Shown here: positions 26,383 through 28,513 of the stretch, piece by piece
How the letters are laid out: the number at the start of each line of letters is the position of its first letter
How positions within the stretch are numbered: the stretch's first letter is position 1
Assembly (NCBI GenBank): GCA_011742915.1
Contig: JAAQTN010000012.1
Coordinates: forward strand, 50,144-114,143
Source of the DNA: Billgrantia desiderata
GTDB lineage: Bacteria; Pseudomonadota; Gammaproteobacteria; Pseudomonadales; Halomonadaceae
Length of the DNA: 64,000 nt
Direction of reading: 5' to 3'
Position numbers and translations under genes: made by a program
The notes under the pieces: generated by a model
Told to the model about the DNA's origin: nothing
Databases searched by the model: none
The model's input: only the letters and a program-made list of their open reading frames with translations

Positions 26383-27285
26383 ATGGCTGAAGTCTCGTCG
26401 GCAACGCTGGATCTCGAACTGCTGCGCAGTTTTCAGGCTGCGGCCCAGCTCGGTTCGCTGGCGGCGGCGGCCGAGCAGCGGCACCGCACCGTCAGCGCCA
26501 TCAGCATGCAGATCAAGCGCCTGGAGGCGTTGCTCGACGTCCGCCTGCTGGAGCGTGACCCGCGTGGCGTGGTGCCCACTACCGCCGGGGCGGCACTGCT
26601 GCAGGAGGCGCGGGAGCTGTTGCGCATGCACGACGGAATCCTGGCCCGCTATGCCGGGCGCGGGCTGCGGGGCAAGGTGCGCTTCGGCCTGCCCGAGGAT
26701 TATGCCCGCGAGCTGCTCGGCGACGTGCTGCCCGAGTTCACCTCGCACCACCCCGAGGTGCTGCTGCAGGCGGTGACGGCCACCAGCGGCGAGCTGGTGC
26801 GGCAACTGGAGCGCTCGCGGCTGGACCTGGCAGTGGTGCTGGACCGGCCCATCGCACTGCCCGGCGGCGAGCCGCTGTGGCGCACCACACCGGTATGGGC
26901 CGCGCCGCGTGCCGCCAACCTGACCGAGCGGGACAGCCTGCCGCTGGCCCTGCACGAGGTCGACTGCCCCTACCGGGCGTTGGCCACCGAAGCCCTGGAG
27001 CGGCTCGGCAGGCCCTGGCACGCGCTGTTCACCAGCACCAGCATCCACACCATCGAGCGCGCGGTGGAGACGGGGCTGGCGATCAGCGTGCTCGACCGCG
27101 AACGCCTGACCCCTGCCATGCGCGAGCTGGGCGAGGCCGAAGGCCTGCCCGCTCTCGGCCGCTGCGAAGCGCAGCTGCATTTCGCCCGCGCCATTGCACC
27201 CGCCTCGCAGCCTGCCGCCCAGGCCCTGGCCGAGCTGCTGCGCGAGCGTCTGCGAGGACGCGGCCCCTGGCGCGGAGCCGGATGA
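26383..27285 (+). CDS. LysR-family transcriptional regulator
   Basis: 300-residue LysR-type regulator. The winged-helix domain occupies about residues 8-66 (ELLRSFQAAAQLGSLAAAAE, then TVSAISMQIKRLEALL), followed by an effector domain with LVRQLERSRLDLAVVLD. It is divergent from the EamA exporter with 88 bp between starts, the usual position for a regulator of its neighbour. AGGA lies 7-10 bases before the ATG. The inducer is unknown. It ends 10 bp before the tandem repeat at 27.3 kb. Confidence 0.88.
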   Translation: MAEVSSATLDLELLRSFQAAAQLGSLAAAAEQRHRTVSAISMQIKRLEALLDVRLLERDPRGVVPTTAGAALLQEARELLRMHDGILARYAGRGLRGKVRFGLPEDYARELLGDVLPEFTSHHPEVLLQAVTATSGELVRQLERSRLDLAVVLDRPIALPGGEPLWRTTPVWAAPRAANLTERDSLPLALHEVDCPYRALATEALERLGRPWHALFTSTSIHTIERAVETGLAISVLDRERLTPAMRELGEAEGLPALGRCEAQLHFARAIAPASQPAAQALAELLRERLRGRGPWRGAG

Positions 27286-27347
27286 GTCGGGAGTAGGCGC
27301 AGGCAAGAACCCTGACCCGGTAAAGAGCAGCGATGAGGGGGCTGAAC

Positions 27348-27373
27348 AAAAAAGGCGCCGCCAGAGGAGGCAC
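27348..27373 (-). terminator. Second (imperfect) terminator of the duplicated module
   Basis: On the minus strand, stem arms 27366-27373 and 27355-27362 pair with two mismatches around an AGA/TCT loop, followed by TTTTTT. It is the duplicate of the stronger terminator at 27421-27447. Confidence 0.65.
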
Positions 27374-27420
27374 AGGCAAGACCCTGACCCGGTAAAGAGC
27401 AGCAATGAGGGGGGCTGAAC

Positions 27421-27447
27421 AAAAAAAGGCGCCTCCAGAGGAGGCGC
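27421..27447 (-). terminator. Strong intrinsic terminator of the sRNA candidate
   Basis: A perfect 8-bp stem (27440-27447 with 27429-27436, GCGCCTCC / GGAGGCGC) with a 3-base loop, followed on the minus strand by a run of seven T. It could also stop any transcript running on from the AEC gene. Confidence 0.88.
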
Positions 27448-27536
27448 AGGCAAGACCGTGACTAGCAATGAGGGGGAGAAACCATAGCGGGAAACTGGCG
27501 GTTCCCCTAATGGCCGTGGTGCCTCATCAACACCAC
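27421..27536 (-). ncRNA. Candidate Fur-regulated small RNA (RyhB/PrrF-like)
   Basis: Predicted transcript of about 116 nt on the minus strand from a Fur-box promoter to a strong terminator. It would fold a 5' hairpin (GTGGTG ... CACCAC), a second hairpin (GGGGAAC ... GTTTCCC), then a C/U-rich single-stranded stretch with CUCAUUGCU, then the terminator. CAUUGCU is the RyhB core that pairs with AGCAAUG at the sodB start. The same core-terminator module repeats just downstream (core at 27401-27407; degenerate copy at 27329-27335). A six-codon frame (MRHHGH) lies in the first hairpin but lacks a ribosome site. The start site is inferred. Confidence 0.6.
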
Positions 27537-27542
27537 GCACTC

Positions 27543-27572
27543 AATGTAAGTCATTCTCATTCTCTCTGTCAA
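27543..27572 (-). promoter_or_regulatory. Sigma-70 promoter with overlapping Fur box
   Basis: On the minus strand, TTGACA (27572-27567) and TACATT (27548-27543) are 18 bp apart. The plus-strand sequence AATGTAAGTCATTCTCATT (27543-27561) matches a typical Fur box (AATGATAATCATTCTCATT) at 16/19 positions and covers the spacer and -10. Iron-loaded Fur should repress it. Confidence 0.7.
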
Positions 27573-27595
27573 CGCGAATGCGAATGTTTTTTATT

Positions 27596-28513
27596 TCAGC
27601 TTCCTGCCAGATGCAGCCACAGGGGCAGCGTGGCCATGGCCAGCAGCGTCTGGCCGGTGATCAGGGCGGCCATCAGCTCGGCGTCGCCGCCCAGCTGGCG
27701 GGCTAGGATGTAGGCCGAGGTGGCGGTGGGCAGGGCGGCGAACAGCAGCGCCACGTCGCGGCTCACCGCGTCCAGCCCCAGCAGCAGCGCCAGACCGAAC
27801 ACCAGCGCCGGCATCAGCATCAGCTTGACGAGGTTGGAGGTCCACACCCCGCGGTCCAGGCGCAGCAGCGCCTGAGGGCGCAGGGCCACACCCACCGCCA
27901 CCAGCCCCAGCGGCAGGGCGGCACGACCCAGCAGCTCCACGGCCGAACCGCTCCAGCCGGGCAGGCCGATACCGGTGAGATTGAGGCCGATACCGGCCAG
28001 GCAGGCCAGGATCAGCGGGTTGCGCACCAGGGCCGCCAGGCTCTTGCCCAGGCTCGAGGGGCCCAGAGTGCCGGCGGCGATGAAGCTGGCCACGCACAGC
28101 ACGTTGACCACCGGGACCATCAGCGCCACGGCGACCGCCGCCACCGTGGCGCCGGCCGAGCCATGCAGGGCAGCCGCTCCGGCAACCCCCACGTAGGTAT
28201 TGAAGCGCAGCGCACCCTGGAATACCGAGGTGAAGGCCGCCGGCGCCAGGCCCAGCCGCCGCTGTGCCGCCCACAGCAGCCCGGCGAAGGCCAGCATGCC
28301 GCCGAGCAGGGCGATGGCCAGGCGTATCACCGGCACCTCGCCCACGTTGGCGGTGGCCAGCGTGGCGACCAGCATGGCGGGAAAGAGCAGGAAATAGATG
28401 ACCTTCTCGAGCTGTACCCAGAAGTCGTCGCTCGGCTGGCGCAATCGGCCGAGTGCGGCGCCTAGCAGAATCAGCAGGAACAGGGGGCCCAGCGCATTGG
28501 TAACGCCTTCCAT
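27596..28513 (-). CDS. AEC (auxin efflux carrier) family transporter
   Basis: 305-residue inner-membrane transporter with about ten helices in two repeats (first helix ALGPLFLLILLGAALG; later LARQLGGDAELMAALITGQTLLAM, the conserved C-terminal AEC segment). Bacterial members move malate, malonate or other small acids; the substrate here is unknown. AAGGAT lies before the ATG. It is divergent from the 28.6-kb gene, and its stop codon is 24 bp before the -35 of the Fur-box promoter that points the same way. Confidence 0.87.
   Translation of the reverse strand: MEGVTNALGPLFLLILLGAALGRLRQPSDDFWVQLEKVIYFLLFPAMLVATLATANVGEVPVIRLAIALLGGMLAFAGLLWAAQRRLGLAPAAFTSVFQGALRFNTYVGVAGAAALHGSAGATVAAVAVALMVPVVNVLCVASFIAAGTLGPSSLGKSLAALVRNPLILACLAGIGLNLTGIGLPGWSGSAVELLGRAALPLGLVAVGVALRPQALLRLDRGVWTSNLVKLMLMPALVFGLALLLGLDAVSRDVALLFAALPTATSAYILARQLGGDAELMAALITGQTLLAMATLPLWLHLAGS

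Follow-up and report, generated by a model that had tools for sequence, protein, structure and literature searches.

Iron-sparing small RNAs (sRNAs) are a textbook system, and RyhB of E. coli (RF00057) combines a CAUUGCU seed with Fur control and an iron-sparing logic. The locus described here, on the minus strand at 27572-27421 of a 64-kb stretch of DNA (hereafter the window, meaning the whole stretch analysed) from a Billgrantia species (Halomonadaceae), carries the same seed behind a predicted Fur-type promoter, and further copies of the seed follow its terminator. Two questions arise: to which family this sRNA belongs, and what the additional seeds, which lack a recognisable promoter, may be for.

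The Locus and Its Predicted Promoter

The locus is bounded by an upstream gene encoding an AEC-type transporter (27596-28513, minus strand; TIGR00946 with an E-value of 1.9e-19, under that model's cut-off) and a convergent LysR-type regulator gene (26383-27285, plus strand; LysR models, the best being LrhA with 122 bits, under the cut-off). It is thus flanked by two 3' ends, at 27596 and 27285, as stated in an earlier reading of this DNA made from the letters alone (the sequence-only reading), all of whose coordinates were reproduced on checking the sequence. That reading had also tied its case to conservation in relatives; of 201 Halomonadaceae genomes sampled, 153 contain similar DNA, and a chance origin of the locus is therefore unlikely.

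The promoter scan placed a -35 element TTGACA at 27567-27572 and a -10 element TACATT at 27543-27548 (both on the minus strand), confirming the promoter read earlier, with TTGACA starting at 27572, TACATT ending at 27543 and an 18-bp spacer. With 10/12 matches it is the sole promoter-like site in 26900-27900 (mean of 0.0 in shuffled sequences). Overlapping the -10 element is a predicted Fur box, AATGTAAGTCATTCTCATT (27543-27561, minus strand). Fur sites are described by the consensus strings AATGATAATNATTATCATT and GATAATGATAATCATTATC. Against AATGATAATNATTATCATT the box matches at 14/18 and is the only site in the 64-kb window to reach that score (30 simulated windows average 0.13 matches with at least 13/18), and against GATAATGATAATCATTATC it matches at 13/19, a score also reached at four other places in the window. 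The box is therefore the best site in the window by AATGATAATNATTATCATT, while the 16/19 given previously depends on the consensus used. A second, weaker predicted Fur-like site (27577-27595, minus strand; 13/18 to AATGATAATNATTATCATT) lies upstream of the -35 element, and its sequence suggests an extended Fur operator. Fur-like sites occur at the same position in most of the related copies that were read.

Relationship to PrrF and RyhB

No Rfam family reached its gathering score in the 64-kb window. Under permissive settings, in a 551-base search against all Rfam families, the PrrF model (RF00444) aligned over positions 1-150 of its 150, including the -35 element, to 27572-27421 with 36.9 bits and an E-value of 1.2e-4, below the Rfam gathering cut-off of 90 bits; in a whole-genome scan of the same genome (G000) with stricter filters this match was not recovered. 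The RyhB model (RF00057) gave 14.4 bits and an E-value of 7.6 at the locus, against a gathering score of 55, and the label "RyhB-like" attached to the locus by the sequence-only reading does not hold up beside the PrrF score. A Fur box and a promoter directly upstream, as expected of a PrrF member, are both present.

The covariance search across Halomonadaceae suggested by that reading was run, and at E<=1 RF00444 matched 144 of the 201 sampled genomes with up to 75 bits, a threshold at which 2 of 14 control genomes also match; none of the 201 exceeded the 90-bit cut-off. Across the order, 36 of 194 genomes matched at E<=0.01 (controls, 0 of 14), and the seven that exceed 90 bits all belong to one family, taken to be the Pseudomonadaceae. 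A graded series of genera and families joins the sRNA to Pseudomonas-like PrrF. The core reads CTCATCAGGCTAATCACGG in Pseudomonas-like genomes, CTCATCAAGCTAGTCACGG in most other Halomonadaceae genera read, and CTCATTGCTAGTCACGG, with a few one-base variants, in Billgrantia and genus g11; the position of CAUUGCU is occupied by CUCAUCAAGCUAGUCACGG in other Halomonadaceae genera and by CUCAUCAGGCUAAUCACGG in Pseudomonas-like genomes. Compared with the PrrF core CUCAUC(A/G)GGCUAAUCACGG, GCUA.UCACGG is retained and the middle is altered to CUCAUUGCUA.

Judged by these sequence comparisons, the sRNA is almost certainly a PrrF homologue, and it is one that stands outside the family as curated by Rfam (36.9 vs. 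90 bits). Its CAUUGCU seed looks like a local change in the PrrF core, and its likeness to RyhB looks like convergence because neighbouring genera have PrrF-like cores instead of CAUUGCU. A true RyhB orthologue, which the seed and Fur control would fit, is extremely unlikely in view of the scores of the two models and those neighbouring cores. The sRNA would thus act like RyhB but descend from PrrF, and the broader proposal of an iron-starvation sRNA of Halomonadaceae with a Fur-type promoter is supported as a prediction. PrrF homologues appear to be widespread in Halomonadaceae and missed by the 90-bit cut-off, which amounts to an annotation gap.

Structure of the Predicted sRNA

The predicted primary sRNA would be ~116 nt long (27421-27536, minus strand) and folds better than dinucleotide shuffles (z of -2.8; 2 of 200 equally good). 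A first 5' hairpin, SL1 (27516-27536), is backed by covariation: among 35 aligned copies from Billgrantia and genus g11, 96.9% of cells are paired and both sides change in four of six pairs. The second hairpin, SL2 (27482-27513), comes from fold prediction and is less well supported in the same alignment (70 to 87.5% of cells paired). Next is the PrrF-type core CCTCATTGCTAGTCACGGTC (27454-27473), recognised by Rfam alignment, conservation and target complementarity, which consists of the seed and a second box, TCACGGT. The terminator scan then finds terminator 1 (27421-27447), with a stem at 27447-27429 whose eight pairs, followed by seven T, agree with the earlier description. All four features are on the minus strand.

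Taken as a whole (33 pairs, including the loop-seed pairing discussed below), the structure has 50 cells with both-side changes vs. 19 in shuffles. Further pair types, one of five covariation measures, were not above shuffles (129 of 500 reach the value), and the terminator columns were judged to be misaligned between sequence types (outer stem 65.7% paired). The sequence of the SL1 loop, UGAUGAGG, complements CCUCAUUG within the seed (27465-27473), and it is possible from sequence that the loop masks the seed in this way. The columns of this putative pseudoknot are 96.4% paired yet nearly invariant, and the sole varying pair can also be read as an extension of SL1. An ATGAG loop is present in 34 of the 35 aligned copies, and other genera have loops such as TCGCCA.

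Predicted Targets

Two targets, sodB and sdhC, were chosen beforehand and compared with a background of 303 starts computed from ~10% of the sRNA's own genome. Ranking by duplex energy with a longer core proved weak in this GC-rich genome (sodB 164 and gbcA 16 of 303), after which a complementarity score on the 20-nt core was adopted. By this score one of the 303 background starts equals or exceeds sodB, and likewise one does so for sdhC, and none of 1000 permuted cores reached both scores; the MnSOD start is not complementary to the core (261 of 303). Duplex energy with the 20-nt core gave 15 for sodB, 18 for sdhC, 0 for gbcA and 102 for acnB (of 303), again a poor discrimination of sodB. Starts of sodB, acnB and sdh had been proposed for target prediction by the sequence-only reading, and of these acnB of the window genome failed (238 of 303 by complementarity score), which leaves sodB, as a candidate by sequence, and sdhC.

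The sodB site, which includes the ribosome-binding site, is complementary to two stretches of the core, UCACGGU and UUGCU. Within the genus, 19 of 90 genomes contain the pattern ACCGTGAN{0,4}AGCAAGGAG a single time (reversed pattern, 0), in all 19 just before the start of an Fe-type SOD, 16 assigned by script and three by eye (LPF for LPY twice, a second ATG once). It is absent from the other 71 genomes, including five (G111, G161, G203, G202, and G208) of the 15 that carry the downstream arrays described below, and present in the remaining 10 array genomes. The sodB product of the window genome scored 342.7 bits with the FeSOD model (cut-off 348), the query being slightly short of the stop. 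At the GTG start of sdhC, GCCGTGAATAGCAAA is complementary to UUGCUA.UCACGG in 14 of 14 genomes read, a conservation that coding constraint also preserves. Predicted pairing with sodB and sdhC is supported by both computation and conservation, and iron-sparing regulation of the two genes by this sRNA is very likely.

A separate observation concerns acnB of G203 (L293), where ACTAGCAATGAGG, a 13-nt perfect complement, lies just before the gene (0 of 303). No such complement is present at the other 13 acnB starts read, and the sodB start of G203 is ordinary (114 of 303).

In the window genome the seed match AGCAATGAG occurs at 19 places, two of which belong to the sRNA locus, and its reversed control at 9. 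At start codons the seed match hit gbcA, a Usp-like gene and an MFS gene, neither of the latter two encoding an obvious iron protein. The gbcA gene encodes the oxygenase subunit of glycine betaine monooxygenase (NF058607, above cut-off), presumably a Rieske-type protein, and has AGCAATGAGG just before its ATG. Because gbcA was found through its seed match, its complementarity rank of 0 of 303 is ascertained and not independent. Among 21 orthologues with 5' ends read, nine have the exact site and four more differ from it by one base. If gbcA is a target, it would link glycine betaine breakdown in halophiles to iron shortage. In G010 (L201, L205), two adjacent matches in different reading frames correspond to gbcA, which may be frameshifted.

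Promoterless Modules behind the First Terminator

The tandem core module reported earlier is present, with seed copies at 27464 and 27401 and the degenerate CTCATCGCT at 27329. Module 2 (27348-27420, minus strand) consists of a seed, CTCATTGCT (27401-27409), the motif CAGGGTCTTGCC (27375-27386) and a weak terminator stem (27355-27373). Module 3 (27302-27347, minus strand) has the degenerate seed at 27329-27337 and CAGGGTTCTTGCC at 27302-27314, and is decayed. Both lack a promoter. The claim that core and terminator are repeated together therefore stands for the seeds and not for the terminators: the stem of module 2 has one mismatch (-8.5 vs. -15.7 kcal/mol for terminator 1) and was not picked up by the initial terminator scan, and module 3 has no terminator.

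Nor is the duplication merely local. The two downstream modules were searched in 90 genus genomes, and the 22 with a match were then read individually. At least one downstream module is present in 15 of the 90, with one to six extra modules each; G225, G211, G169, and G173 match through the first copy only. No downstream module was found in the other 75; in three of these (G149, G216, and G119) a seed remnant survives directly after the terminator, the remainder having been lost. Total seeds number seven in G153, six in G145 (B. lactosivorans), five in G111, G155, and G239, four in G147, three in G000 (the window genome), G063 (B. aerodenitrificans), G203, and G202, and two in G130 (Billgrantia ethanolica), G161, G204, G209, and G208, the totals of G000, G161, and G209 including a variant seed.

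The first downstream seed begins 63-75 nt after the first seed in these 15 genomes. Modules share CCTCATTGCTGCTYTTYAC..CAGGGTCTTGCC with small variations, and have neither the TCACGGT box nor the two 5' hairpins. A simple scan found no internal promoter-like site in any of the 15 Billgrantia arrays, while as a control it found the upstream promoter in 13 of the 15 genomes (not in G203 and G208). Fur matches are 8 to 10/19 inside the arrays vs. 11 to 13 before the first copy, a modest contrast. Terminator 1 is predicted to be strong in all 15 (-15.2 to -17.3 kcal/mol), and later terminators are often weak or missing: the last module has none in 12 of 15 genomes, and none was found by the scan in the four modules of G111. 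Strong downstream stems are kept in three of five modules in G145 and in both modules of G203. In G145 (L004/L079), the linkers TCGAGACAACACTC and TTCAGAAAACACCC alternate between modules; judging by this pattern, a two-module unit was probably duplicated as the array grew.

Possible Roles of the Array

Across the 15 genomes, the seed of the first downstream module has 13 columns, of which 11 do not vary and two differ in a single genome each. As a neutral yardstick, the AEC-type transporter gene of the same genomes has 13 of 125 fourfold-degenerate columns invariant, at a pooled pairwise identity of 0.647. Pairwise identity across modules is highest in the 12-nt seed block (0.978) and the CAGGGTCTTGCC block (0.847) and lower in the intervening spacer (0.538), the terminator region (0.513) and the linker (0.342); the units were selected with a seed-like pattern, a choice that biases the figures towards the seed, and alignment without homology lowers the linker value. 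When units were found by CAGGGTCTTGCC instead, 37 modules were recovered, 34 with the exact CCTCATTGCTGCT and three near it; this list holds 37 of the 39 seed-pattern units and misses the module of G204 and the last of G153, both without the motif. As far as these sequences tell, it is the seed, not the terminator, that persists in the arrays.

We consider it likely that the locus encodes a Fur-repressed, iron-sparing PrrF homologue and that read-through into the promoterless array gives RNAs with at least two seeds. The homology, the promoter and Fur-box anatomy, the lack of recognisable internal promoters and the seed conservation that enter this model are computed; iron control, pairing, translational block, read-through and the use of array seeds are steps that we infer. 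At low iron, Fur would leave the promoter and the ~116-nt RNA would be made, whose CCUCAUUGCUAGUCACGGU would base-pair at the translation starts of mRNAs for iron enzymes and block translation of sodB, sdhC, probably gbcA, and, in some species, acnB. Behind terminator 1, the modules would offer the seed CCUCAUUGCUGCU without the UCACGGU box, 5' hairpins or a promoter of their own, and polymerase running past terminator 1 would enter the array, as for PrrH, yielding RNAs with two or more seeds. That the array is transcribed by read-through with working seeds seems to us somewhat probable. Such read-through may be small, because terminator 1 is predicted to be strong in all 15 array genomes.

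Alternatively, cleavage of the read-through RNA would yield extra short sRNAs, with RNase E releasing each module as a separate Hfq-bound sRNA, like CcsR1-4, rather than one multi-seed RNA. Many modules carry their own stem and U-tract, and CcsR1-4 provide a precedent for RNase E processing (excerpts of PMC8625941 and PMC10253847), but the modules without a terminator (those of G111 and most last units) would be left with unprotected 3' ends. We regard this route as possible, although we lean against it.

The array might further be a separate regulatory layer, in which read-through turns a masked single-seed sRNA into a multivalent RNA with unmasked seeds, an idea that we put forward tentatively and with some doubt. 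Folding of five genomes gives an unpaired probability of 0.24-0.44 for the first seed and 0.32-0.83 for downstream seeds, the latter above the first in 16 of 18 cases, which suggests, at the level of predicted folds, that the 5' loop masks the first seed more than those 16. If such a layer exists, array RNAs would favour mRNAs that match the seed half (e.g., gbcA), several mRNAs could be held at once, and the module copy number would set the dose. The CAGCAAUGAGG before the gbcA start codon is an 11-nt match to array modules. When the module core was used instead of the first copy, the ranks were 113 for sodB, 8 for sdhC and 4 for gbcA (of 303), and the complementarity score of gbcA was 28.5 vs. 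36.5 with the first copy. A split of targets between the first copy and the modules, as read from these scores, would be at most partial.

Two other readings of the array, as neutral repeats or as spare terminators, are disfavoured because linkers, spacers and terminators drift around a seed that hardly changes. Selfish or neutral tandem repeats, spread by slippage and unequal crossing-over and with seeds kept alike by gene conversion from the first copy, would explain the near-identical copies in G153, the alternating two-unit repeat in G145 and the range of two to seven seeds. The module body (GCTYTTYAC..CAGGGTCTTGCC), however, is absent from the first copy, and the modules were therefore not recently copied from it; moreover, with identities of 0.54 in the body spacer vs. 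0.98 in the 12-nt seed block, conversion would have to be confined to ~13 nt, which is hard to envisage, and we find this reading unlikely. Still less likely are fail-safe terminators, repeats that would stop the transcript before the convergent LysR gene with the seeds as passengers: the position between convergent genes and the strong stems of G145 and G203 would suit them, but terminator identity is 0.51 vs. 0.98 for the seed block (in seed-pattern units), G111 and most last modules have no terminator, and near-bare seed remnants persist in G149, G216, and G119. Seed number ranges from two to seven among sister species, and other arrays occur in another genus (see below); together they form a natural series for testing seed copy number against sRNA dose, whether a leaky terminator can act as a regulatory switch, as it does for PrrH, and the division of sRNA targets between two core halves.

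Comparison with Known Systems

Like PrrF1 and PrrF2 of Pseudomonas (RF00444), the Billgrantia sRNA has a Fur-box promoter, a predicted ~116-nt RNA (116 nt for PrrF1 in an excerpt of PMC2851614), two 5' hairpins, an intrinsic terminator, a core with GCUA.UCACGG and complementarity to sodB and sdhC starts. It differs in having CAUUG for CAUCAGG in the core, another 5' hairpin sequence and a score below the gathering cut-off. With RyhB it has in common the CAUUGCU seed, Fur control and iron-sparing logic, but no homology by covariance model.

According to excerpts of PMC2851614 and PMC10597452, PrrH of P. aeruginosa starts at prrF1 and reads through its terminator. A single Fur promoter, and transcription past the first terminator into a further copy, would be common to both systems. 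The second unit in P. aeruginosa is an entire prrF gene that has a Fur site of its own, whereas the Billgrantia units are headless, promoterless, up to six in number and devoid of the second core half. A second complete copy with its own Fur promoter is found in none of the 15 arrays (Fur matches of at most 10/19).

In arrangement, the array resembles the CcsR1-4 or cuckoo RNAs of Rhodobacter, a row of homologous sRNAs served by a single upstream promoter (excerpts of PMC8625941 and PMC10253847). CcsR1-4 differ in belonging to a protein-sRNA operon with ccaF1, with an RpoHI/RpoHII promoter, a terminator at the 3' end and RNase E processing; no such operon with a DUF1127 gene is found at our locus, where the gene directly upstream encodes the AEC-type transporter. 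NsiR1 of Nostoc likewise forms a tandem array, of 12 copies, but each copy has its own promoter (excerpt of PMC9045159). The tandem sRNA pairs covered in the excerpt of a review (PMC4211561) also differ from the Billgrantia array. In the CC-licensed PMC literature we found no single promoter feeding a row of headless seed modules for iron-sparing sRNAs, no sRNA work on Billgrantia, and, by title or abstract start, no such PrrF locus in Halomonas.

Arrays and Tandem Copies Elsewhere

Promoterless arrays with a full core occur in two genomes of genus g11. That of G174 has a 135-nt period and four units plus a decayed one, the first included, with a weak 9/12 promoter-like site recurring between units; that of G140 has a 183-nt period and four units, the last with a TTCATTGCT seed. 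Other tandem copies in Billgrantia and g11 (L063-L068, L072-L075) have a Fur-like site (12 to 14/19) before each copy. Overall, 31 of 72 copies are followed by another CTCATTGC (reversed control 0, reverse complement 1), a count in which promoterless modules and complete tandem copies are mixed.

Besides close tandem copies and promoterless arrays there is a third arrangement, in G080 (L069), which has three PrrF-like copies ~1.3 kb apart, each with its own Fur-like site. Finally, G162 of genus g11 (L018) has TTCATTGCTACGG just behind the terminator, a seed-like remnant that is perhaps of independent origin.
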